A stretch of DNA of 64,000 nt from contig JAMXDE010000015.1 of the NCBI GenBank assembly GCA_026770025.1, positions 310,001 to 374,000 on the forward strand, in the 5' to 3' direction. Made by a program: the position numbers and the translations under genes. Origin of the DNA: Craspedostauros australis (lineage: Eukaryota; Bacillariophyta; Bacillariophyceae; Mastogloiales; Achnanthaceae). Shown piece by piece: positions 21,471 to 38,850 of the stretch. The notes beneath the pieces are model-generated. The model saw only the letters and a program-made list of their open reading frames with translations, was not told the DNA's origin and ran no database searches. The first letter of the stretch is position 1. Every line of letters begins with the position of its first letter.

Positions 21471-24400
21471 TTACCAACCCATGATCTTGAATCGCAGGTA
21501 TTCGAAGACTGCGATGGACAGTCCTTTGGTGAAGATGTCGGCCAGTTGCTCCGGTGTTGCGATGTGCTGGATGTAGATGAACCCTGCCTTGACCCAGTAC
21601 CAAAAGAAGTGCCACTTAGTCAGGAAGTGCTTGGTGCGCGCGGTTGGTTGATGATTGGTAGCAAGGGAAATGCAGGCTTGGTTGTCCTCAAACACCGTGC
21701 ACTGGAGGTTGGTGTGCAGTGGCATGGTGGTGCCGGCATTGTTGATGACTTGGCGGATGAGCTGTTGAATGGGAATCAGCGTGCGCATTGCGAGAGAGAG
21801 AGCGGCGTACTCGGACTCCATCGTAGATAGAGCAATCTCAGTTTGGAGTTTGGACTTCCAAATGAGGGGGCACCCTCCCAGCGTAATGAGGTAGCCAGTG
21901 CGCGACTTGACTGAGACGGGGTCCTTGCTGTCTTCTCGTCCGTAGAGTCCTGCGAAGTCTGCATCCACGTAGCACTTGAGATCAAGCTGCCCGGTGGGAC
22001 GCACGATGGTACCCTTGTCCTCAGTGTGCTTGAGATAGCGCATGATGCGCTTGACGGCCTTGGCGTGTGAGCGGCGAGGGTCACTTCCGAAGCGAGCGAC
22101 TTGGGAGACTGCGAATGCCAGGTCGGGGCGAGTGTTGGTCGTGAGATACAACAGCATGCCGACGACGGAGCGGTAGTTCCATGGTTCGTTCATGGGAGGC
22201 TCATGCTTGCATTGTCCCAGTGCGAGCTGCGTAGTTGGTACGGGGCACGGACTGCAGTTCGTCATCTTCGTAGTGGCGAGGATCTTCTTGATTAGTCCTG
22301 GTTGGCGGAGATGGACCGTGTCTGCTTTTGGATCACGGCTGAGCTCGATTCCCAGGAACTCGGTGAAGCTTCCTTCTTGGGTGAGCTCAAAGCCGAGGTC
22401 GCGCATTGATTTGATGAAGTCGTCGGCGGCTTGCTTGGTCTTGGAGGCGATGCCCGCATCGTCAACGTAGAGGACGATCATGATGTCCTTCTTGATGAAC
22501 AAGCACTGCTCTTGGTCGCAGGCCTTGAAGCCGATCGTAGTGAGGGCTCGGATGAGGTGTTCATACCAGAGACGAGGAGCAATCGTCAAGCCGTACAGGC
22601 TCTTGCGGAGCTTGAGGCAGGTGTCGGGACCCTTCGTTGATTTGAATCCACGAGGGAGATGAAGGTAGACTGGCTTGTGGATGGATGCTTGCACGAAAGC
22701 GTTCGTGAAGTCGATGGACGTTGTTGTCCAACCCATGACGATGGAAGTGCTGAGGAAGATGCGGACGGATGACCATGCGACGACTGGTGCGTAGGTGGAG
22801 GAGTCCTCTTGCATGAGGTCTCCACGGCAACACCAGCGTCCCTTGTATTTCTTGATGGTTCCGTCGGGGAGGCGCTTGCGGCGAAAGACCCAGGTTCCTG
22901 GAAAGATGCGATCGTTCTTGATGTCGATCTTCTTCACTTCCTCCCACGTGCCCTTTTCCGTGAGATCTCGAATCTCCTTTTCGGCGGCTTGCATCCACTC
23001 GTCTTTGTTGTCGTCGCGAATGGCTTCGTCGAAGGAGAGAGTATCCGGGTCGGTGTTGGATGCCTTGTACACCGAGGTGCGTTCGGCGATCTCCAAGTCG
23101 CCACCTGCGGCAAAGTAGCTGATCATGCGATTATCGACGTAGGTGGGGTAGTTTGTTGCATCCTTCTGTGGCTCGATGATTGCGACAGAGTAGGCATGCT
23201 GTTCGATGTTCGTCCATGTAGTTGGTGGAATGCACTTCGCTGTGTCGAGGATGAACGACGGGTTGATGTCGAGCGTGGATGACGAGTCGATGTCGAGCAT
23301 GGATCCTTTGTTGGCGGAGCGAGTCGCTGGGGCCGAAGTGAGTGGCGCCGTGTTCGACTCAATCATGCCTTGGACGAATTGCTCAATCTCGTATTCGCTT
23401 GGAAGTGGCCACGGTCCTGGTCGGATCGTCGTCACTTGGCGACGGAGTAGCTCGAATGCGAGACGGTAATGATGATTTTCGATCATCGCATTCCACACGG
23501 AGCGAGTCCTTTGGACGAACGCTTCTGCGTTGTACGCAGATTTGGGTGGAAGGTACCCTTGGTTCATCAAATGTTCGGGGTCTTGGTAGTACCATGGCCC
23601 TGATTTGGCCTTGGACATGAAGTCGAGAGCGTCGAAGTGGGGTTCCATCGTGCCAGTACTGATGAAGGTGCTCAGCTTCTCCACGAATTGCTCGACGGCG
23701 TGGTCAGTGGCCAGTCGGAGGAGGTCTTCGTTGAGAAAGACGCTGTTGAGGTCTTTCTCGAAATGGTCCTCCATGTCCGAGTGAAAGTTGTTGTACGTCT
23801 CCTGAAATGGAGTCGCTCCTTCCTCGGTCATGTTGTCGGGGTCCGGTTGCCACCAGTCAGCCATGTTGATGCTTGCTTCTTCTACTTCAGCCGCCTTTGG
23901 AGCGAACGTTGGGAGGACGACGTTGGTTGGCTGTGGATTCAAGGTGTTGAATCGACCTCGGAGTCTGCGCAACAAGTAGTGAGCGTCCACCTTGAATTGG
24001 TGTAGATCGATGGAGAGAGAGTCGCTACCTTTGCGTTGGAGAGGTTCGATTGTATGTAAGCAATCGACGATAGCTTGTGAGAATGTGATGATCGATGATG
24101 AGTCGGGGTGCAGTTCCCTGGGTGTTGCGGCCTGTTCGATCTCTTCCAAGGTAGCTACTGCAGGGCAGAAGTAGTAATCATCGGTGTCTTCGTCGTCCAG
24201 CCAGGCTGCTTTGCCTCCCATACGTGCGTACGTGAATCGCTTTGGTTGTTTGCGAATTCTCGTGCTTTGAGGTCTTTCTGGCGTTGGCTCAGACTTAGGT
24301 ATCATGGGTGGCGTGGAGCTCGTCTGAATTGGCGTCGGAGCTGGAAGTGGTAATGGAGTTGCTAATTCCAATGTTGGTGATTCTCGGAGAGGTGAGCTCA

Positions 24401-27400
24401 ATTGCGGTTGAAGTGTTCGCTGATCCGGTGACTCTATAGTAGAGTCAGGTACCGGGGACTCATCGGGAGCTCCCTCTGTCGAGGACATTTGCCTGTTGGC
24501 TCCCTCTGAAACTGGCATCGGAGGGGCGAGAGCTTCACTCATGAGATCGGGGATCTGTTGTGTCATTGGTTGCGACCCTTTCGCCAATACCTGTGGCGTT
24601 CTTTCACGGATGGTTTGTTGGTTTCGCGTATCAAAACTCGGTGGTGGAGTGTTATCGTCGTTGCGTTGTAACCGGTTGTGGTCTCGCGTGTCTGATGCGA
24701 AGATGTCGTCCTGCTCCATTGATTCCACATCGTCGTCATCGAATGGATATTGGAAGGTGGTGTCACCAAACATGCGAGTCCATTCTTCCGATTGATAGCT
24801 TGGAAGTTGCTTCAAGTCGGTAGCAATCGTTGCGAACCAGTCATCGAACACGACGTGGAACTGAGGGGTGATTGAACCTGTCCGTGGTGATAGGACTAGA
24901 GGTACGGTTGAAGCATGCTTCGTAGAGAGACCCATGTTCACGTATCTCTCTCCTCTTGGTTCCCATCGGGGTATCTTGCGTCCATCGGCCAGCGCTTTGT
25001 TAAGGACATAGACTGGACTGCCCCATACGTGCAGGTTATGAAGTTGCTTGAGGGGAAGACGGATGCGTGATAGAACATCGTAGGGTGTGAGACCGGTGGC
25101 GGGATTAGGCACGCGATTGTAGATGTACGCGGCGTGTACGACGGCCATTGGCCATAGTTGAGCATCAAACATCGTTGGCCAGTGGATGCTTTGATGCATC
25201 ATCATGGTTCGGGCCATTGAGACAATTGTTCGAATGCTTCGCTCGGCTATTCCGTTGTGGTGATGTGCGCCGACACCTGCGAATCGATGGACTTGATGGA
25301 AGATTTCAAGGTGTTTGGAGTATTCGGGTGAGGTGAAGGTGGTGGCGTTGTCTGATAGATACGATCGTACGGGGACTCCAACATCACGACACATCAGTTC
25401 GAACCGTTCCTTGGCTTCGAGGGTGGCGTGCGTGGTTAGCGCTGCCACAGGTTCCACGTGAATGTATCCTGATGCGTGATCGACAAAGATGGCTCCGCCT
25501 TTGTACATTTCGTTTGGATCGCCTTTGCCTCGTCCTGAGAAGAGGCGTCCTGGCGTTCGACCGACGAAGTGGTCCACTGATACTTGTTGTCCAGGGAACA
25601 AGTGATCGGTGCGCAAAACTCCTTGTTTGTCACGGACGACATGTTGAGTTATTCCTGGGGAAGGGCGACGGTGCAGCTTTCCGAATTGGCATGCAGCGCA
25701 AAGCGGGAGGCTTGTGACCCTTGCCGCAGCTGTGTGCATCTTTCTAGACGATTCTGACCCGGTGAGAGTACCCGAACGCAGCAGGAACTTCACTCGACTG
25801 AAGGATAAATGTCCGAGACGATAGTGCCACCGAAGAAGTTCCTTTTGCGGTTGGGTGAGGTTCACGTTGTGGTCCGACACGGTGGAGACGATGGAAGTTA
25901 GTGCAGCTGGCACGTCATGGATGTTGTCGGCACTGTAGCCGACTGATGTTGGTAGCCTTGTTGACTTCTTGTAATTCGCTACGATTGCGTTGCGATCGTC
26001 GTTTCCCAGGATTCCGCTGAGTTTGCAGGAGGATTTGTTGAAAACGATCGTTTCGCCCTGATACTCTTCAAGGAGACTGGAAGTGCTGATTAGCTTGACC
26101 TTTGATTCGGGAACATGGAAAGCAGGCAGTCGCAATTTGCGAGGGCTTCCAGTTACATCAAGGACATACCATTCGACGGTTCCCAACGCATTCACTTGGA
26201 TTTTCTTGAGGAATCCGTTGAGAAAGGTCGGTCTTGGTGGAGGACTTGGAGTAGAACAGAAATCGTTGAGGTCATTTGTCACAGAAATTGATGCTCCGCT
26301 GTCCCAAACGAGTTCGAATGGAGCATCGGGTGAGAGATAACTCTCAGCTTTAGCTGAAGATGCGAAAGCATTGCGATTGGAGAAGAAGGAGGCTAGACCT
26401 TGCAGAGTGAGTAGTGCGGGCATGTCATTGTCACATTGTTGCTTTTGACTTCGATCATACATCAAGTCAATTCCGCGAGTTGGGTACAGGCTCCAGAGAT
26501 TTCGTGAGATGGATGAGGTGCGACCTTCTTGGCGGGGCAATTTTGCTGTCGTGGGTGTTTGGTTTTTACCATAAGTGGAATTTTTCGATTGGTTCCAGTG
26601 ACGACGTTTTGATCTGTGATTGCGAGTTTTGGTCCGAGCCTGGGGACGCCACACACGTTTTGTTCGTGGGGAGTTTCCTTTCGACACGTTCACGGGTTTG
26701 GGTCCATCTGGGTCGAGACTTTCCATTACGAGATCGTAGAGACTGCGTTTCACGGCTCCATTGAAGTGTGTTGGACGTTTATGCACTTGCTTGTACCGTT
26801 CTTTGACTCGTGCCTTGTTGTAGACTAGATCAGCAGAGTTGATTGAGTCAGGTCTTCGTGGTACGTTCGTGTGGAGGAGTAGTAGAGTTACGGCAATTAG
26901 CATCCAGGCATTTGCTGCCGCGATGTACCACCCATACTCTACTCCGATAGTGATGACTTGGAGTGAGGCGAAGAGGAGAACCATTCCAACGATGCTACCG
27001 AAGTAGTTGAAGGAGGTGAAGAGGTTCCAGACGAGAGACCACCAGGTGTCTTCGTCTTGACTGGAGGCGGCTGTGAAGCATGTCCACGCAGCCATGTCAA
27101 TGGAGAGGTTGTCCTGTTTGGGAGCTTGCTTGCCCTTTGCCTTCGCCTTGAACTTGAAGTTGTCCTGATGACTCTCAGTGTTGTGCGAGAGACGCCAGCG
27201 GCGGCACTTGGCGCACCACATGAAAGTCTTGTCGTTGACAAGCTTGCGCTGTGGTTCACCGGGCTTGGGAGCTTTGGACGACCAGCCCTGGCTGGCGTTG
27301 CGTTTGGCGTCGCGTTCCTTGGGCTTCTTGAAGTTGTTTCTCCTTCCGTCGTTCTTGGAGAAACCCTTGTGTTGCTCGAGAACGTTGGCGCTTGGATTCT

Positions 27401-28736
27401 GGACGGCGTTGTTGGCGTACGAGTACCTGGGCACGTTGCTGTCTCTGGTACGCCTGATGGCATGCCAGCGATTTCCGCGCACTTCGTTTTCGTACGACGC
27501 CTCGGCCTTGTTGCAGATTGCCATCCATGTGAGATCTTTTGCGGCAAGCTGGGGGCGAGCGTACTCGTACGTGAAGACGGGGAGACGCATGAGGATTTCC
27601 TCAAGGTTATCCTTCATCACATAGAGAGGACGTCGGTACTGTTCACCAGACCGGATCTGTCCTCCAGCCTGCAGGAAGGCGTCGAGGATCGTTCGGAGGA
27701 GACGAAGGTCGAAGCGACCGGCGTCGTCGAGGCGCTTGCAAAGAGCACGGAGGTGGACTGCCATGAGACCAACGTTCTCGTTTGGAAAACGTCTGCAGTT
27801 GACTTCGCGGATCTTGGCTGCGAGGGCGTCTTGTTCATCCAAGGAGTTGGCCGAGTTGCTGTTCATGAACTCAACGAAGAGAGTGATGAAGTTATCGTGG
27901 AACTTCGGCTCGATTCGGTTCATGAGTTGGTCTTCGAGGGCTGGATCAAGACTGTCACGGAAGAACGCTGAGGCTGTCTCGTTGTTCTGGACGTCGTAGT
28001 GATCCCACTTCAGATGGAACTCGTCGAAGTGCTTGGTGGCATCTTCAAGAGTGAAGGCGGCTGGTGAGTCCAAGACGCAAGTCATTCCTGACTCTGCGTT
28101 GGCGTCAGCGATGTACGCCATGGTGAGGAGTCCGGTTCTTGCCATGTGGTTTCGCACCAGGCGAATGAACTGCTGGATGTTCCCTCCTTTCTTGAACTTG
28201 TCGGTGAGTCCTTGCTCTCGCTTGGACTGGTTGGTTGAGTCAGCACCGTTATGGAGGATTCTCTGTTGTTGAGAGTTGGTCCACCTGGTGTGTGACTCGT
28301 CTTGGAGGCCCGTCCAATGCCCGTTCGGCGCGCCTGCGGTCCAGGGCACCCAGTTGCGTCCTTGCTTGAGGATACCTCCCATGATGGGAACGGTTGGTTT
28401 CCCAGAGAGGTCGTGGTCGTCGTCTTCGCTGTCCTCTTCTGACTTTCTGCTCTTCTTGGGCATGGGGGTTTCCATGTCGAAGATGCTGTCGCCGAGGAAG
28501 GACTGTTCCGTTCGAGGTCTTGTGTCGCCAGCGGAGCGGCTGCGCTCGAGACCGGGACGGCTTGGGGTCGTGGTGGCTGTCGCCGCTGCTTGGGCAGTGG
28601 CTATGGCCGCGTTTGCTGCTTCTGCAGCGGCTTCGGCCGCCAACGTCGCCTGTGTGAGGCGAGCGTTCTCGACCGTGATCGCTTCGAGCTGCGCTTGCAG
28701 CTCTTCCAGCGTGGCAGGAGTTGTCTCTTCCGCCAT
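21471..28736 (-). CDS. Copia gag-pol polyprotein
   Basis: 2421 codons from the ATG at 28736. An N-terminal Gag-like part (about residues 1-600) is followed by a hydrophobic stretch near 590-640. The aspartic protease active site (DSGAS) lies near 813, an integrase core and GAG-preintegrase-type region at about 960-1210, and a Pro/Ser/Thr-rich linker at about 1350-1560. Reverse transcriptase is at about 1960-2150 with its YVDD motif near 2092, and RNase H at about 2250-2400. Gag and Pol share one frame, as in many Copia elements, which then rely on proteolysis. Treated as a resident mobile element, not a host gene. Confidence 0.95.
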   Translation of the reverse strand: MAEETTPATLEELQAQLEAITVENARLTQATLAAEAAAEAANAAIATAQAAATATTTPSRPGLERSRSAGDTRPRTEQSFLGDSIFDMETPMPKKSRKSEEDSEDDDHDLSGKPTVPIMGGILKQGRNWVPWTAGAPNGHWTGLQDESHTRWTNSQQQRILHNGADSTNQSKREQGLTDKFKKGGNIQQFIRLVRNHMARTGLLTMAYIADANAESGMTCVLDSPAAFTLEDATKHFDEFHLKWDHYDVQNNETASAFFRDSLDPALEDQLMNRIEPKFHDNFITLFVEFMNSNSANSLDEQDALAAKIREVNCRRFPNENVGLMAVHLRALCKRLDDAGRFDLRLLRTILDAFLQAGGQIRSGEQYRRPLYVMKDNLEEILMRLPVFTYEYARPQLAAKDLTWMAICNKAEASYENEVRGNRWHAIRRTRDSNVPRYSYANNAVQNPSANVLEQHKGFSKNDGRRNNFKKPKERDAKRNASQGWSSKAPKPGEPQRKLVNDKTFMWCAKCRRWRLSHNTESHQDNFKFKAKAKGKQAPKQDNLSIDMAAWTCFTAASSQDEDTWWSLVWNLFTSFNYFGSIVGMVLLFASLQVITIGVEYGWYIAAANAWMLIAVTLLLLHTNVPRRPDSINSADLVYNKARVKERYKQVHKRPTHFNGAVKRSLYDLVMESLDPDGPKPVNVSKGNSPRTKRVWRPQARTKTRNHRSKRRHWNQSKNSTYGKNQTPTTAKLPRQEGRTSSISRNLWSLYPTRGIDLMYDRSQKQQCDNDMPALLTLQGLASFFSNRNAFASSAKAESYLSPDAPFELVWDSGASISVTNDLNDFCSTPSPPPRPTFLNGFLKKIQVNALGTVEWYVLDVTGSPRKLRLPAFHVPESKVKLISTSSLLEEYQGETIVFNKSSCKLSGILGNDDRNAIVANYKKSTRLPTSVGYSADNIHDVPAALTSIVSTVSDHNVNLTQPQKELLRWHYRLGHLSFSRVKFLLRSGTLTGSESSRKMHTAAARVTSLPLCAACQFGKLHRRPSPGITQHVVRDKQGVLRTDHLFPGQQVSVDHFVGRTPGRLFSGRGKGDPNEMYKGGAIFVDHASGYIHVEPVAALTTHATLEAKERFELMCRDVGVPVRSYLSDNATTFTSPEYSKHLEIFHQVHRFAGVGAHHHNGIAERSIRTIVSMARTMMMHQSIHWPTMFDAQLWPMAVVHAAYIYNRVPNPATGLTPYDVLSRIRLPLKQLHNLHVWGSPVYVLNKALADGRKIPRWEPRGERYVNMGLSTKHASTVPLVLSPRTGSITPQFHVVFDDWFATIATDLKQLPSYQSEEWTRMFGDTTFQYPFDDDDVESMEQDDIFASDTRDHNRLQRNDDNTPPPSFDTRNQQTIRERTPQVLAKGSQPMTQQIPDLMSEALAPPMPVSEGANRQMSSTEGAPDESPVPDSTIESPDQRTLQPQLSSPLRESPTLELATPLPLPAPTPIQTSSTPPMIPKSEPTPERPQSTRIRKQPKRFTYARMGGKAAWLDDEDTDDYYFCPAVATLEEIEQAATPRELHPDSSSIITFSQAIVDCLHTIEPLQRKGSDSLSIDLHQFKVDAHYLLRRLRGRFNTLNPQPTNVVLPTFAPKAAEVEEASINMADWWQPDPDNMTEEGATPFQETYNNFHSDMEDHFEKDLNSVFLNEDLLRLATDHAVEQFVEKLSTFISTGTMEPHFDALDFMSKAKSGPWYYQDPEHLMNQGYLPPKSAYNAEAFVQRTRSVWNAMIENHHYRLAFELLRRQVTTIRPGPWPLPSEYEIEQFVQGMIESNTAPLTSAPATRSANKGSMLDIDSSSTLDINPSFILDTAKCIPPTTWTNIEQHAYSVAIIEPQKDATNYPTYVDNRMISYFAAGGDLEIAERTSVYKASNTDPDTLSFDEAIRDDNKDEWMQAAEKEIRDLTEKGTWEEVKKIDIKNDRIFPGTWVFRRKRLPDGTIKKYKGRWCCRGDLMQEDSSTYAPVVAWSSVRIFLSTSIVMGWTTTSIDFTNAFVQASIHKPVYLHLPRGFKSTKGPDTCLKLRKSLYGLTIAPRLWYEHLIRALTTIGFKACDQEQCLFIKKDIMIVLYVDDAGIASKTKQAADDFIKSMRDLGFELTQEGSFTEFLGIELSRDPKADTVHLRQPGLIKKILATTKMTNCSPCPVPTTQLALGQCKHEPPMNEPWNYRSVVGMLLYLTTNTRPDLAFAVSQVARFGSDPRRSHAKAVKRIMRYLKHTEDKGTIVRPTGQLDLKCYVDADFAGLYGREDSKDPVSVKSRTGYLITLGGCPLIWKSKLQTEIALSTMESEYAALSLAMRTLIPIQQLIRQVINNAGTTMPLHTNLQCTVFEDNQACISLATNHQPTARTKHFLTKWHFFWYWVKAGFIYIQHIATPEQLADIFTKGLSIAVFEYLRFKIMGW

Positions 28737-29860: not shown

Positions 29861-31780
29861 TTAAGCTTTCACAGCCCCAGATTTAATCTCGAGTTCTTCC
29901 TGAAGAGTCTTGTTCTTGTTGTAGAGGGTGATGGCGACGACCACCATGACGAGAGCGAGCGCACCGAAACCAAGACCAAGACCCAGGGCGAGGGCGTCGG
30001 AGTCGTCGTCGTCGCTGTCGGGGTTTCCGGCCTTGCCATCACAGCTCAAGAGGACGGCCTTTTCGAGATCGTAGTCCCAGCGAGGAGTCAATTCGACGTC
30101 GCAGTAGGGGGCCTTGAGGGGGAAGATGGAGTTGACGACTTGTTGCAGACCACTGAGCTCTTTTTGCACAATGGCTTCCTTGTTGATGGCGTGGATGACT
30201 GTTTTGCGGACGTTAATGTCATCAAACGGAGCCTTGCCTGAGTTGAGGAGCAAGATGACATTTTGGACATCATCAGAATGAGAGACTTGGATCTGTTCAG
30301 AAATAGCGGGATCGTTTTGGATTTCGACGATGTCAGCATCCGACAAGACGCCGGCACCCCACACGATGTCCAATTCGCCACTCAGCAAGGCCTCCTTGAC
30401 TTCTGCCGATGTGGCGTAGCGGACAATTTCCACGCGCTTGATTTCCGATGCGCCGCCCCAGTATGATTCGTGCGCCTCAAAAATGACGCTCGTTTCAATG
30501 CCGTCTCCCACGTTCTTGGTGACGTAGCTGAAGGGACCGGTACCAGCAATGTCTTGGATGCCTGCGCAGCTGACTTCTTCTTTGAATTCACTACCCTCTT
30601 CAACCTTGACAGTGCCCCAATCCAAGTGACAGGAGTTGGCTGAGAGCGGATCAGTGCTGTTCCCATTCACGAAGGCATTGGGAGAGATCATGCGGACTGG
30701 ACGAATGAGTGTAAGTTCTTGCAAGTATGGACCGTGCTTTTGGTTGGTACGGACGACGAATTCGTAGTCGTTGTTGCACTTCCATTCTTTGGTGTAGAGG
30801 CCCACACCATACCAACCGTGCTTTTCCGAAGTCAATGCCCCGGCAAAAATGTGATCAAAGTTGAGCTTGGCAACGTCGCAGTTCCAGTCTGCACCATCGT
30901 GGAACTTGACATTTTGGCGAAGAGTGAAGGTGTAATCGTCACCGCCGATGTTATTGGGTGCAACCTCCCAGAAGGTGGCAAGGGCAGGAATGACTCCACC
31001 GTTGGCAGCGCCGGCACTGTAGGCCACCAAGCCTTCGTAGACCCAGTTGTTGGAGAAAAACTCGTTTGGGCCATACACGTGGGCGTTCATGGTGCCGACA
31101 GTCTTGAAGAGACCAGTCCGGGCGCCGGGGGCAATCGTCACAGAATTGGACGATCCATCAACGGGACGCAGGCGATGGACGGGATAGTCAAACTGTTGAT
31201 GCCCGGGCTCGTATCCTGTCAAGCGGCGGTTGAAGAGCGTCGGGATACGCTTTCCGTAGAGCGGCAACATGATGGCTTGTTCGTGGTAGTACTTGTGGAT
31301 TTCTTCCCATTTGGGCTTGAGGACAACGGGGTCTTGTTGTTGGAGGGCATCCTTGACCTTACCGAGGAGTTCTGTGCGAGTAGATGGTGCTTCGAAGTTC
31401 ACCATGGAGGGAAAGACACCTGCACCGCCGTTGCCATCGATCCATCCGCTTACGTATGAGAAAGGATCGTAAGGGGCTCCCCAAGTTTCGCTGATGGAAA
31501 AGTGGAAGTCGCCCCCTTGACGGGCAATGTTGATCTCGGCCTTGGACAAGGACCGAGATTCGACATCGAAGCCCACCGCGGCCAGATCGTTGCGAACATC
31601 GTCTTCAATCGCCGCGTTGACCGCCTCATCTTCCAAAAGGACGAAAATGAGAGGATCAAACTTGCTGTTGCATTCGATTGCTGCTTTGAGGGCAGCAGAG
31701 TTGACATCGGCGGTGGTGGGACTTACGGTTGCCAGGGCTCCGAGCAGGAGCGGGGATAGGGAAGCGGTGGAGAACTTCAT
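29861..31780 (-). CDS. Membrane-anchored NikA/SBP_bac_5-like solute-binding protein, circularly permuted
   Basis: 639 aa from the ATG at 31780, which opens a signal peptide (MKFSTASLSPLLLGALATVS, cut near TTADV); the longer frame upstream is repeat-derived. Residues 41-207 match the C-terminal part of bacterial nickel/oligopeptide-binding proteins (family SBP_bac_5): DLAAVGFDV, the hallmark ETWGAPYDPFSYVS, LYGKRIP and the terminal FDYPVHRLRPV. Residues 213-580 then match the N-terminal part: TMNAHVYGPNEFFSNNWVYE, YTFTLRQNVKFHDGADWN, YLQELTLIRPVRMISP, IAGTGPFSYV, HESYWGG, LLSGELDIVWG and LNSGKAPFDDINVRKTVIHA. The order is thus reversed relative to E. coli NikA. An Asp-rich linker (587-595) precedes one transmembrane helix (596-620) and a short charged tail. 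Likely a surface or endomembrane metal or peptide receptor of bacterial origin; the ligand is unknown. Single exon. No ABC permease or ATPase lies nearby. Confidence 0.88.
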   Translation of the reverse strand: MKFSTASLSPLLLGALATVSPTTADVNSAALKAAIECNSKFDPLIFVLLEDEAVNAAIEDDVRNDLAAVGFDVESRSLSKAEINIARQGGDFHFSISETWGAPYDPFSYVSGWIDGNGGAGVFPSMVNFEAPSTRTELLGKVKDALQQQDPVVLKPKWEEIHKYYHEQAIMLPLYGKRIPTLFNRRLTGYEPGHQQFDYPVHRLRPVDGSSNSVTIAPGARTGLFKTVGTMNAHVYGPNEFFSNNWVYEGLVAYSAGAANGGVIPALATFWEVAPNNIGGDDYTFTLRQNVKFHDGADWNCDVAKLNFDHIFAGALTSEKHGWYGVGLYTKEWKCNNDYEFVVRTNQKHGPYLQELTLIRPVRMISPNAFVNGNSTDPLSANSCHLDWGTVKVEEGSEFKEEVSCAGIQDIAGTGPFSYVTKNVGDGIETSVIFEAHESYWGGASEIKRVEIVRYATSAEVKEALLSGELDIVWGAGVLSDADIVEIQNDPAISEQIQVSHSDDVQNVILLLNSGKAPFDDINVRKTVIHAINKEAIVQKELSGLQQVVNSIFPLKAPYCDVELTPRWDYDLEKAVLLSCDGKAGNPDSDDDDSDALALGLGLGFGALALVMVVVAITLYNKNKTLQEELEIKSGAVKA

Positions 31781-31944: not shown

Positions 31945-32661
31945 GCATCAAGATGGCCACATTGACCAACATCATGATGGCAAAGGCCTGTGCTGGCCAA
32001 AGAAGGCCCTTAATCAGGCCTGAAGGCAACGAGTGGCTACCCTGCGCATCTCACAATGCTTCTCAAGCCCAGGGTTTAAGCCTATTCCAATCAAGCAAAA
32101 CGGCCGCTTGCGCGGTTACGCCTGTTGTGGCTCTGTGTGTGAGCCCGACAAACAGCCATCCTGTGCAGGAACATGTGCGTCTGGCAGCCTTTGCGCCATC
32201 GCTCCCCTAAACAGAAGCCACTCCTCCAGGCATTGTATCAAGATACCCGTTTTAGCCAATACTAATAGGATAGCGAAGGCCTGTGCTGGCCAAAGAAGGC
32301 CCTTAATCAGGCCTGAAGGCAACGAGCGGCTATCCTGTGCATCTCAAACGCTTTTCAAGCCCAGGTTTAAGCCTATTCCGGTCCTGCAAAAGGCCGCTTG
32401 TGAGGTCGCGTCTGTTGTGGCTCTGAGTTTGGGACCGCCGTCCTGTGCGGGAACATGTGCGTCTGGCAGCCTCTGCGCCGTCACGTCCCAAAACAGAAAC
32501 CACTCCGGCAGGCATCCGTAACAGCCAACACTATGATAGCAAAGGCCCTTAATCAGGCCTGAAGGCAATGTGCGGCTGCGCATCTCAAAACGCTGTTCAA
32601 GCCCAGGATTTAAGCCTATTCCAATCAAGCAAAATGGCCGCTTGCGAGGTTACGACCTGCG
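31945..32661. repeat. Three degenerate tandem repeats, about 290, 270 and 140 bp
   Basis: Units start near 31945, 32238 and 32515. Each carries AAGGCCCTTAATCAGGCCTG, then AAGCCCAG(G)TTTAAGCCTATTCC and a GGCCGCTTGCG block; units 1 and 2 also share GGAACATGTGCGTCTGGCAG. The third unit is truncated. Unit 1 reaches to within about 165 bp of the NikA-like start codon and so forms that gene's upstream region. Open frames across the repeats (plus 32033-32521, Cys-rich) follow the repeat period and are probably incidental. Confidence 0.85.
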
Positions 32662-35700: not shown

Positions 35701-38700
35701 TTAGTGTTCGGACGGTCTGTTCTTCGGGTCCTTCGCGGACGCTGCACAGATGTCCTTCAATTTGTCCGCGATGTAGCCTGGTAGTTTGGCGTTGGTCCGT
35801 GTTGTTTTGCTCGCCCAACCTGGCACTGCGAGTGGTGGGTGTTCGGTTTCCGCGGTCTGGTCTTGTAGTGCTGTGGTGTGATTGGATGGTAGATGTTGTT
35901 GTCCGTCTTGGAGGGCTTTGCCGATCGCGAACGCCTTGCTCTCTGTCGCTGTGCGCCCGAGTTTTCGCGTTTTGTCCGTCTTCCCGAACGATTCGGACGT
36001 GATCGGCAGCTTGTCGGACGTGTGCGAATCGGCAGGGACGACACCCAACTTGTTGATGATCCACCCTTCCCATTCAGCGCTCTTGACCACAACATCTTCC
36101 GTGATGCCAGATGCAGCCACCAGCCGTGCCTGGTCATCGTCATACTTCACCTCGTGAGTCTGACGTACCTGTTGCCCACTTGCGCGGAATCGTCTTTTTG
36201 GTGCGCCCGGTAACGTCGTGATGTTGCCTTCAAGGGTCTCTGCGTTGGCCAGTACCGTGGTGGTACCCGCGATGTTACCGGCGACCAGTGCCTCGAAGAG
36301 TTGGAATGGGGTCTTGATGTCGTGTCCACTTTGCACGTATTTTTGCAGCACACGGGTGATGTACGCGAAGTGGGTGTCCAGCATGCTCTTACCGGTTTGG
36401 GCCTCTGTGTAGATCCACGCGATGATTTTGGCTGCCTTTCGTGTCACAAGGTTCTTGTTGAGTTTGGACGTGATGAGCGCGATGTGCTCGTGACTGGCGA
36501 AGCAACACGCGTTATCGCTCTGTAGGATGATTTCAGTCACGGATGGGAGAATGTCTTTGACCTTTTTTTGCACGATCTCCAGCAGTCCACCAACTTGAAG
36601 AGTGTCTTGTGTCGGTCTTCCATCGACCACAATGTCGATGAACCGATAAGTGAAAATGTCATTGCGACATGTGATGACCATTGCCCCAAGCAGTGACATC
36701 CCCTTCTTCCCCCAATATTCTTGTTGGGCTTCGCCTTGGCCTGTTGGTAGAATTTTTTGCTTATGGTCGAGTACCACATAGGCTCTTTCAGGCTTATCAT
36801 TGAGCTCGGATTGATAAAAGGCGATTTGTCTGAATTGAACTTTGGCACGCACTTTGTGAGCCATGTAATTAATGATTTCATTGGCGAATCCCGGCGCCGC
36901 CGCAAGCATTGACTCCAATTCGTCTTTGTGTTCCGTGAGTTCGTTGTCCTTAAGCATTGTGACAAAAGGAACAAAACGATCATCCACAAATCGCATTGCT
37001 GCGCCACAACGGTTGCATACTTTACGTGGTTGTTCGCTTGCGGTGGTCACAGGAATGTCATTTGTGATGATTGGGATGTCGTTTGTGATGGTGGTGGTCT
37101 TCTTCCGCTTGTGCTTGTTGGTGCGTGGTTTGCGTTGATTGGTTGATGTGGATGTTGCCTTCTTCTTCTCCTTGTTGGTGGTGAGAGCGAACGTGGCCGA
37201 ATGCATTGGGTCATCACACTCATGCTGCAAGTGAGACGCGGTGAATTCCCATTTGAGGAAGACGACAATCAGCTCAAGCGCATGCAAGAGGGACTTTGCC
37301 GTGCACACATGTGACAAGATGACGTCATCCGGCTCGTCATTGGCATCAACAGTATCATCGTTTTTCTCCTCCCCATCCGCTTCATACTTAGCCTCCAGCA
37401 GCTCGACTAGGCGCGAAATTGCCTGTTTGAGTTTCTCTGTTGCCATCCAGAAGTAACTCTCGAAGGAAGAAAGCCCTGTCTTGATCTTGCTTTTGCGTGT
37501 GAGGAGGTTAGTAATGATGGTGAACGCCAGCCTTCTCACTGGGTTGTTTGTAGTGGACGAGTACATGCCAAATAATTCTTGGATGGTAGTGCTGCCACGA
37601 TCGAACACTGGGACATTTTCGAATTCAACCCCCCCATACTGTACCGTGTGACTCAACCCTGCCTTGTATGTAGTAGTTGTCATGAGGAAGGACACCACAC
37701 CAGAGAGATCACTGGCACACACGCGATACTGGAGAACCCGTGATGGGATGACTTCGCCGTGGCTCAAGATGTCATAGTAACCGCGCAAGGTGCAGGCCTG
37801 GCTCTGCGTGATGATGTCGCGTTTGGAAAGCATGCGCGCCTTCTGTTCCTCCGATAATCCATGTGCGTGCTTGTCCAAGATAGCAGTACACAGTGCATGA
37901 GGCGCAGACATGGCCAAAGCAGCTCTCACCGTGCAGGATGATGTAGTTTCTCCGAGCAAGCAGAGGGTGTACAGGTTAGATGCCAACATTGTCGGAGGAA
38001 GCTCCACATTGCCGCATACGTATGAAACCACCTGTTCCATCTGACAAGTTGGCACCTCCTCTTCTGGAAGCAGGACAGTCCAGAGTGCAGATGATACGAC
38101 ACTCCACATCTGTTTCACAGAGCTCCAGATGGTCCGATCGTGTTGGCCTGTGAGAACGAATCCTGTTGTTGGCATTTGCTGGAGGATTTTAGGATCTAGG
38201 TTAGATCGAAGCGCTACCATGATACGACCGATGGCATCACGCCTCCAGTTTCCCGCCTCTTCCAGATCGTACCCAAACTGGCCTCCTCTCCTGTTCCCGC
38301 TGGCGCGTGTTCGTTGCTCCTTGCCGCTGTCGTCGTACGTGCTGTCGCTATCGCCAGAGGCATCTGCGTAGCCCCCAGCAACAACAGCGTTGCAGCGACG
38401 AGGGAGCCTCGCTGGTGGGGTAGGCGCGACAGGTGGTGCAACGTCAGGCGCAGCAGGGGGTGGCGCGTTCACGATAACGCTCACCGAAGTCCCATCGCCG
38501 ACACCTCGTCCCTCCGAACGCACCCTGACGTTGGAGTCGTCGAAGACGCCTCCGTTGTTGTCAAGGATGTGTACGAACACGTGCAGCTTGCGAGCGTGCG
38601 CATGCGTACCGTTCGGGACGAGGCCGCCATCCGCTGCGAGCATCGGCTTCACATCGATCACTTGCGTGATGGTGGTTGGCTTCCTCAACACAGCGGATGG

Positions 38701-38850
38701 CTTGTCAGGCAACAGTTGCTCTGCAGTAGGCAGCAGGAACCCCTTGGAGTCGAATGGAGGAGCAGATACAGGGTAAGCAGAGCACGGCTTCTTACGAGGA
38801 GAGGGGTTGCCATCCTTGGAGAGGGCCTTGGCAGCAGCAGAGGGAAACAT
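35701..38850 (-). CDS. Putative DDD transposase, 1049 aa, family unassigned
   Basis: ATG at 38850. A Pro-rich disordered N-terminus (1-200) is followed by a helical middle (220-550). Next comes a basic Lys/Thr-rich linker (560-605) and a CNRCGAAM zinc-knuckle pair (C612, C615). From about 690 the pattern is that of an RNase H-fold nuclease: VVLDHKQK (D695) with a following YWGKKGMSLLGAMV strand, IILQSDNACCF (D779), and WIYTEAQTGKSMLDTHFAYI (D825), spacing 84 and 46. The (E)AQ-x-GKS-x-x-D-x-H-F motif is shared with transposase-like proteins I have seen in other protists and animals but cannot name. A charged, disordered C-terminus follows. Its position between inverted repeats supports the transposase reading. 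No introns needed. Confidence 0.7.
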   Translation of the reverse strand: MFPSAAAKALSKDGNPSPRKKPCSAYPVSAPPFDSKGFLLPTAEQLLPDKPSAVLRKPTTITQVIDVKPMLAADGGLVPNGTHAHARKLHVFVHILDNNGGVFDDSNVRVRSEGRGVGDGTSVSVIVNAPPPAAPDVAPPVAPTPPARLPRRCNAVVAGGYADASGDSDSTYDDSGKEQRTRASGNRRGGQFGYDLEEAGNWRRDAIGRIMVALRSNLDPKILQQMPTTGFVLTGQHDRTIWSSVKQMWSVVSSALWTVLLPEEEVPTCQMEQVVSYVCGNVELPPTMLASNLYTLCLLGETTSSCTVRAALAMSAPHALCTAILDKHAHGLSEEQKARMLSKRDIITQSQACTLRGYYDILSHGEVIPSRVLQYRVCASDLSGVVSFLMTTTTYKAGLSHTVQYGGVEFENVPVFDRGSTTIQELFGMYSSTTNNPVRRLAFTIITNLLTRKSKIKTGLSSFESYFWMATEKLKQAISRLVELLEAKYEADGEEKNDDTVDANDEPDDVILSHVCTAKSLLHALELIVVFLKWEFTASHLQHECDDPMHSATFALTTNKEKKKATSTSTNQRKPRTNKHKRKKTTTITNDIPIITNDIPVTTASEQPRKVCNRCGAAMRFVDDRFVPFVTMLKDNELTEHKDELESMLAAAPGFANEIINYMAHKVRAKVQFRQIAFYQSELNDKPERAYVVLDHKQKILPTGQGEAQQEYWGKKGMSLLGAMVITCRNDIFTYRFIDIVVDGRPTQDTLQVGGLLEIVQKKVKDILPSVTEIILQSDNACCFASHEHIALITSKLNKNLVTRKAAKIIAWIYTEAQTGKSMLDTHFAYITRVLQKYVQSGHDIKTPFQLFEALVAGNIAGTTTVLANAETLEGNITTLPGAPKRRFRASGQQVRQTHEVKYDDDQARLVAASGITEDVVVKSAEWEGWIINKLGVVPADSHTSDKLPITSESFGKTDKTRKLGRTATESKAFAIGKALQDGQQHLPSNHTTALQDQTAETEHPPLAVPGWASKTTRTNAKLPGYIADKLKDICAASAKDPKNRPSEH

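Follow-up and report, generated by a model that had tools for sequence, protein, structure and literature searches.

Within a 64-kb stretch of the genome of the diatom Craspedostauros australis (64,000 nucleotides, hereafter the window), one gene raises the question of whether a NikA-type binding protein can exist with its two segments in exchanged order and, if so, what such a protein might do in an alga. NikA is the bacterial periplasmic nickel-chelate binding protein, with a bilobed type II fold and the partner ABC permease NikBC. The initial annotation of the locus had proposed that the C-terminal part of a NikA-like protein precedes the N-terminal part, between a signal peptide and a membrane helix, and that the product serves as a receptor without a permease nearby.

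A NikA-type domain in exchanged order

The initial annotation gave the right coordinates for the gene (29861..31780 of the window), and all the motifs it named are found in the translated 639-aa protein; the gene itself lies on the minus strand, where the reading from 31780 to 29861 is an uninterrupted frame of 639 codons (Table 1). A plus-strand reading of the same interval was rejected, as that frame contains five stops. The contig measures 1.86 Mb in an assembly of 74.8 Mb and 90 contigs, and a gene for a silicon transporter (PF03842, 580.7 bits) lies in the window as well. The best database relative of the window protein (P0001 in our protein set), among the best 120 of 361 matches, is P0002, with 73% identity across 100% of the query, and the named close relatives among the matches listed are diatoms. 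Downstream of the gene, a Ty1/copia-type ORF of 2421 aa with an intact frame (RVT_2, gag_pre-integrs) occupies 21471-28736. Just ahead of the start codon, at 31976-32654, is a set of spaced direct repeats 36-82 bp long, their copies 80-97% alike and mostly about 250-290 bp apart, with one family spaced at 534 bp. A further minus-strand ORF (35701-38850, 1049 aa) has no Pfam match.

Table 1. Features of the permuted NikA-type gene, in window coordinates
Feature	Protein residues	Position	Strand	Basis or remark
Whole gene	1-639	29861..31780	(-)	639 aa + stop, single frame, no intron required
Signal-peptide-like N terminus	1-24	31709..31780	(-)	Hydrophobicity and low pLDDT
C-type segment (~NikA 335-500)	37-208	31157..31672	(-)	phmmer, HMM, shuffles, mapping of the cut
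Cys37, cysteine of the new N-terminal end	37	31670..31672	(-)	In the cut loop; column is a gap in 79/79 bacteria
Joint of old C terminus (NikA 500) and old N terminus (NikA 6)	207-213	31142..31162	(-)	
N-type segment (~NikA 6-325)	213-585	30026..31144	(-)	
Cys301, proposed partner of Cys335	301	30878..30880	(-)	306/306; Ala or Ser in 79/79 bacteria
Cys335	335	30776..30778	(-)	306/306
Cys384, proposed partner of Cys405	384	30629..30631	(-)	305/306
Cys405	405	30566..30568	(-)	303/306
Cys580, cysteine of the new C-terminal end	580	30041..30043	(-)	297/306 in the aligned column
C-terminal transmembrane helix	~594-620	29921..30001	(-)	AlphaFold2 model and hydrophobicity
Post-membrane tail, predicted cytosolic	621-639	29864..29920	(-)	Side taken from the signal-like start

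SBP_bac_5 (PF00496) was the sole Pfam family detected in the window protein, at 151.8 bits against a curated cut-off of 32.4. Using phmmer against the PDB chain of NikA (1uiu_A), we recovered three stretches out of order: residues 227-379 aligned with NikA 13-156, 397-578 with 145-318, and 49-175 with 347-468. An HMM built from 79 bacterial NikA-type proteins returned the same arrangement, with residues 49-206 on HMM positions 379-531, 225-376 on 43-185 and 398-577 on 178-349. Both searches bear out the swap proposed in the initial annotation and confirm that the window protein contains a permuted NikA-type domain whose C-terminal part (49-206) stands before its N-terminal part (225-577). The C-type segment scored 58.1 bits alone, against a maximum of 2.7 bits among 500 shuffles. 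The HMM score of the entire protein was also tried as a gauge of segment order and discarded as too blunt: the domain rearranged into bacterial order totaled 297.4 bits, the native protein 289.7 and 14 domain rotations 272.9-296.9. This total says little about order because the stretches are scored separately, and the evidence is therefore the order of the stretches themselves. The cut falls in the NikA 318-343 loop, between NikA 317 and 344, where the bacterial stretch comprises 22-27 residues (median 24), and the former termini, NikA 500 and NikA 6, now stand about six residues apart in the chain.

AlphaFold2 returned a single confident model of the window protein (pLDDT 92.3, pTM 0.87), with both segments at high confidence in one chain; segments modelled apart, which the initial annotation had regarded as evidence against a permutation, did not turn up. 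Fold searches with VIA-align and Foldseek, both of which keep chain order, gave NikA as the top match for the N-type segment. The sequential alignment spans only residues ~210-585, and these aligners could not place the C-type segment. Single-sequence folding of the isolated C-type segment reached a pLDDT of 33.2 and was useless.

Spread and origin of the permuted order

Searching the assembly for SBP_bac_5 recovered two genes only, the window gene and a paralogue (P0122; G000:C31:233849-235534) that is 40% identical to it, both in C-N order. In the paralogue, the match to Pfam profile positions 293-365 (24.6 bits, below the cut-off) precedes that to positions 1-270. Its gene model (L002 1486-3261) begins MSVDLGNCK, without a signal peptide and with an in-frame stop just upstream. 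Because Seminavis P0140 and Nitzschia P0173 begin alike, an upstream exon may be missing from this gene model.

Protein searches with permuted queries retrieved 361, 4354 and 1396 matches; the best 120 of each yielded 312 distinct proteins, to which we added the window protein and the paralogue to give a family set of 314. Within this set, 306 proteins have the C-N order, five are N-only fragments (P0074, P0116, P0120, P0228 and P0301), three are tandem pieces and none is N-C, a tally biased towards the permuted order by the permuted queries and by the choice of the best 120 of each search, below which normal-order eukaryotic relatives could sit. With the same bias, no normal-order diatom orthologue, the counter-evidence named in the initial annotation, came to light. 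Among the best 80 of 277 bacterial relatives, 79 loci are N-C and one is N only, and none is permuted. A scan of viral contigs for relatives found none.

The anticipated occurrence of the same order in other diatoms was upheld, with Nitzschia, Seminavis, Thalassiosira and Skeletonema among the names; the locus is not a lone oddity, and the family also includes Symbiodinium (Dinophyceae), Triparma (Bolidophyceae), Chrysophaeum and a Chrysoreinhardia taxid (Pelagophyceae), and the green algae Pycnococcus and Chloropicon (Chlorophyta). Most family matches come without an organism name, and the names used here are those given by the sources. One member is labelled Rhodomonas, and our guess is that it may be a contaminant. 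Quick trees built from 35 algal and 23 bacterial rows, picked from the sequences obtained and resolving neither the root nor the route of spread, placed a branch with SH-aLRT 100 between algae and bacteria, whether they used the complete protein or only its N or its C segment. Because the algal rows take one side of this branch with either segment, the simplest reading is that a single permutation occurred, after which the family duplicated, forming two subfamilies or more, and spread among algal lineages. Tandem forms do occur in the family, and tandem duplication, which the initial annotation offered as an example, may have been the route.

Some members carry additional parts. P0257 (981 aa, on a 503-kb contig) has a Peripla_BP_2 domain of the siderophore/cobalamin type ahead of its permuted NikA domain. 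By eye, long charged stretches resembling coiled coils lie before the permuted domain in P0106 and after it in P0245.

New chain ends, membrane helix and ligand pocket

The window protein has seven cysteines, six of them listed in Table 1 and the other, C560, variable across the family (258/306). C37 immediately precedes the first strand beyond the cut, and C580 lies in the final helix ahead of the cut; both columns are gaps in all 79 bacterial proteins. With 84 of the 306 sequences set aside as too short at one end, 222 complete sequences remained, of which 215 carry both cysteines, two neither and five one only (Fisher p = 0.0024, an optimistic value, since related sequences are not independent and relatedness is uncorrected). 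Both are absent from P0035 and P0115, of which P0035 is full length, starts with a hydrophobic stretch and has a membrane helix; the first cysteine is missing from P0026 and P0272, the second from P0109, P0193 and P0246, and we read most of these five as having truncated or odd ends. In a first alignment of 121 sequences, 103 had a usable N-terminal stretch, comprising 100 with both cysteines, two with neither and one (P0202) without the N end of the domain. That the two cysteines nearly always co-occur, and are jointly absent in two sequences, suggests a C37-C580 disulfide that would re-close the cut loop and pin the new ends. In the three tandem proteins only 3-8 residues lead from the equivalent of C580 to that of C37 in the next unit, and these short gaps are consistent with the two new ends being spatial neighbors. 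Helices 28-38 and 572-582, considered by eye, are a possible remnant overlap at these ends.

The flanking features named in the initial annotation were likewise recovered. The C-terminal membrane helix of the window protein is evident both from hydrophobicity (19-residue mean of 2.57, against at most 1.18 in the core) and from the AlphaFold2 model, which places a helix at 594-632. The signal-peptide-like start holds on hydrophobicity only (best 11-residue mean 1.77; pLDDT below 50 at residues 1-19), and its boundary at residue 24 is our own reading. Across the 306 permuted proteins, hydrophobicity placed a membrane helix C-terminal to the domain in 279, with 22 cut short and five lacking it, and a signal-like head in 170, with 20 lacking it and 116 heads too short to judge. 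A tail motif, G-x-P-[LIVMA]-F, occurs within the last 70 residues of 135 of the 314 family proteins, against four matches in the remaining sequence (164,587 residues, last 80 excluded); in the examples inspected it sits just past the membrane, on the presumed cytosolic side. The window protein, whose C-terminal end is NKNKTLQEELEIKSGAVKA, is without this motif. Family tails may act as sorting signals.

The initial annotation had seen no permease nearby, and this extends to the whole assembly, in which the ABC permease family BPD_transp_1 has no match; the control genomes were positive in 14 of 14 cases. Since no matching ABC permease was found in the assembly, any handover of ligand would follow a non-ABC route.

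The residues of NikA around nickel complexes, in the accessible text of the source (PMC11091072), are Tyr22, Met27, Trp100, Tyr382, Trp398 and Tyr402, together with Arg137, Arg97 and the axial His416. Scored across 121 algal sequences, Tyr22 (121), Trp100 (120), Arg137 (121), Trp398 (118) and Tyr402 (120) are kept, and all five are present in the window protein, whose Arg360 and Trp100 correspond to NikA Arg137 and Trp398. Met27, Tyr382 and Arg97 vary among the algae, and at position 416 the residue is Glu in 65 of the 121 sequences and His in 46. In the window protein, 416 is not His, and Met27, Tyr382 and Arg97 are replaced by Phe, Asn and Lys; its paralogue has both His416 and Arg97. This pattern points to a retained carboxylate-binding pocket with a metal contact that differs among members, perhaps reflecting a changed metal or chelate. 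The ligand of the window protein may differ from that of NikA, because His is absent from the nickel-contacting position 416. Among the models scored, NikA (TIGR02294) and CntA lead at 244.8 and 176.5 bits, with peptide binders next at 57; the window protein nonetheless falls below the NikA equivalog cut-off of 393 bits, as do four relatives at 289-317.

A proposed receptor, rival readings and known systems

We consider it likely, with some reserve, that the window protein is a single-pass, outward-facing algal receptor derived from a once-permuted bacterial NikA-type protein, with disulfide-stapled ends and a metal-chelate trap from which the metal is handed over to a ZIP-type transporter or carried inwards by endocytosis. 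Under this proposal, the bacterial ancestor would have been permuted, most simply once, before the algal family diversified: its old termini would have fused through about six residues, and a new opening would have arisen within the NikA 318-343 loop. The C37-C580 bond would then replace the lost loop, with the membrane helix directly after it. The domain would close like a Venus flytrap on a chelate of Zn, Co or Ni with small carboxylate ligands, and the metal would pass to the ZIP-type transporter, or the receptor would be endocytosed; both outlets are proposed in view of the lack of an ABC-permease match in the assembly.

Other readings concern either the ligand or the domain itself. A permuted receptor for a non-metal ligand, such as a short peptide or another small solute serving as nutrient or signal, strikes us as rather unlikely. 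It would accommodate the changes at His416, Arg97, Met27 and Tyr382 and the score below the NikA equivalog cut-off (244.8 vs 393 bits), and the solved SBP_bac_5 relatives do include binders of peptide, heme/glutathione and agrocinopine; NikA and CntA, however, are nearest by sequence and lead by fold, the pocket of Arg137, Trp100, Trp398 and Tyr402 is kept, and ZCRP-B, a diatom NikA homologue, responds to Zn/Co according to the accessible text of its description (PMC9010474). Very improbable, in our view, is that the window protein is the remnant of a tandem polyprotein in which a functional domain would form from adjacent units in the usual N-then-C sense. Three proteins do carry tandem units (P0250, P0290 and P0308), with 3, 6 and 8 residues, respectively, from the equivalent of C580 to that of C37 in the next unit. 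Against this, 306 of the 314 proteins (best 120 of each search, permuted queries) have one C-N unit, and the two unit ends of P0308 are 77% alike, compared with 70% for the best other family member obtained; its array thus looks recent, and tandem arrays as an ancestral intermediate find no support in it.

A chance fusion of two genes, or of two binding-protein families, would fit a sequential fold alignment confined to residues ~210-585, but we give it scarcely any credence: the two segments cover complementary regions of a single NikA HMM (379-531 and 43-349), algae (35 rows) are separated from bacteria (23 rows) in the N-only and the C-only tree alike, and AlphaFold2 models both segments confidently in one chain. 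An assembly or gene-model artefact, or bacterial contamination, has nothing beyond the unusual order itself to recommend it and is practically negligible, given the single open frame on a 1.86 Mb contig, the silicon transporter gene in the same window, and the same order in independent algal genomes, metagenome contigs and transcript sets. We therefore retain the permuted metal-chelate receptor as our working interpretation.

Comparison with NikA sets out what was kept and what changed. Both segments are homologous to it, the five pocket residues are retained and NikA provides the closest solved structures. The window protein may work as NikA does, as a metal-chelate trap. In the algal proteins, by contrast, the segment order is swapped and a C-terminal membrane helix is added; the C. 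australis assembly has no permease match, and the window protein is without His416. Three disulfides are also proposed for the algal proteins, and in every pair one or both cysteines are not found at that place in the 79 bacterial proteins.

The nearest described algal counterpart is ZCRP-B of Phaeodactylum tricornutum and Thalassiosira pseudonana. As described in the accessible text (PMC9010474), this NikA homologue (30.5% identity, E = 7e-49) increases when Zn and Co are scarce, with an inverse relation that was significant for Zn only; it localizes to the cell membrane with one membrane segment and lies mostly outside; and it is proposed to feed ZIP transporters or to be endocytosed like ISIP2a. 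Its overexpression brought no significant change in Co uptake, a result that weighs against the receptor proposed here. Like the window protein, it is a diatom NikA homologue with one membrane segment, and its BLAST score against E. coli NikA is similar to those of 18 permuted-family members (27-34% identity in the best stretch, 7e-35 to 4e-56). Because the scores are alike and C. australis shows no SBP_bac_5 gene beyond the two permuted ones, ZCRP-B is probably a member of the permuted family, an assignment made by published description and score. Speaking against it, the membrane segment of ZCRP-B is reported near the N terminus in the accessible text (PMC9010474), whereas the helix of the window protein is C-terminal and its N-terminal hydrophobic stretch is signal-like. 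The string "permut" has no occurrence in the main text of that paper, and searches of the open-licence PMC literature yielded, among the papers listed, neither a description of a permuted NikA nor a paper on SBP_bac_5 in Phaeodactylum; neither NikA nor ZCRP was found in the accessible text of a paper on metals in pelagophytes (PMC13284251). The initial view that the permutation is undescribed thus stands as far as these searches reach, whereas the receptor idea is not new, having a precedent in ZCRP-B as far as its accessible text goes (PMC9010474).

The permutation is real and widespread among algae, undescribed as far as our searches reach, and its function is partly known if ZCRP-B is a member. 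The fuller family history is one that we regard as evenly poised: a single permutation would have given rise to a receptor family of diatoms, dinoflagellates, bolidophytes, pelagophytes and green picoalgae, with a new disulfide in place of the lost loop, an anchor at the former loop, ZCRP-B among its members, and tandem units or a fusion of the siderophore-binding type in some lineages. The family represents a clear natural circular permutation spread through ecologically important algae, and it offers a testable account of how the cut might be repaired (disulfide C37-C580) and a possible reason for its retention, namely anchoring without a permease. If ZCRP-B belongs to it, an ordinary end-to-end alignment with NikA would miss about one-third of the domain, and the metal site (His416 or its Glu replacement) could be selected directly for mutation. 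The end cysteines, pocket residues and tail motif are immediate handles on algal uptake of scarce metals.

Two further systems offer partial parallels, as far as the accessible texts describe them. Tp0684 (MglB-2), a circularly permuted glucose-binding bacterial lipoprotein for which its authors suggest tethering as a possible driver of the permutation (PMC4990184), is likewise a naturally permuted, membrane-tethered solute-binding protein and shares a permuted order with the window protein; it differs in binding sugar and in being of type I/cluster B (type Ic), thus of another family and with another permutation. FBP1 of P. tricornutum serves siderophore iron and has a possible bacterial origin, but it is FhuD-like, and the accessible text mentions no SBP_bac_5 domain (PMC6876252). 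By analogy, the algal family can be seen as uniting, within the NikA fold, the permuted and tethered design of Tp0684 with the idea embodied in FBP1.
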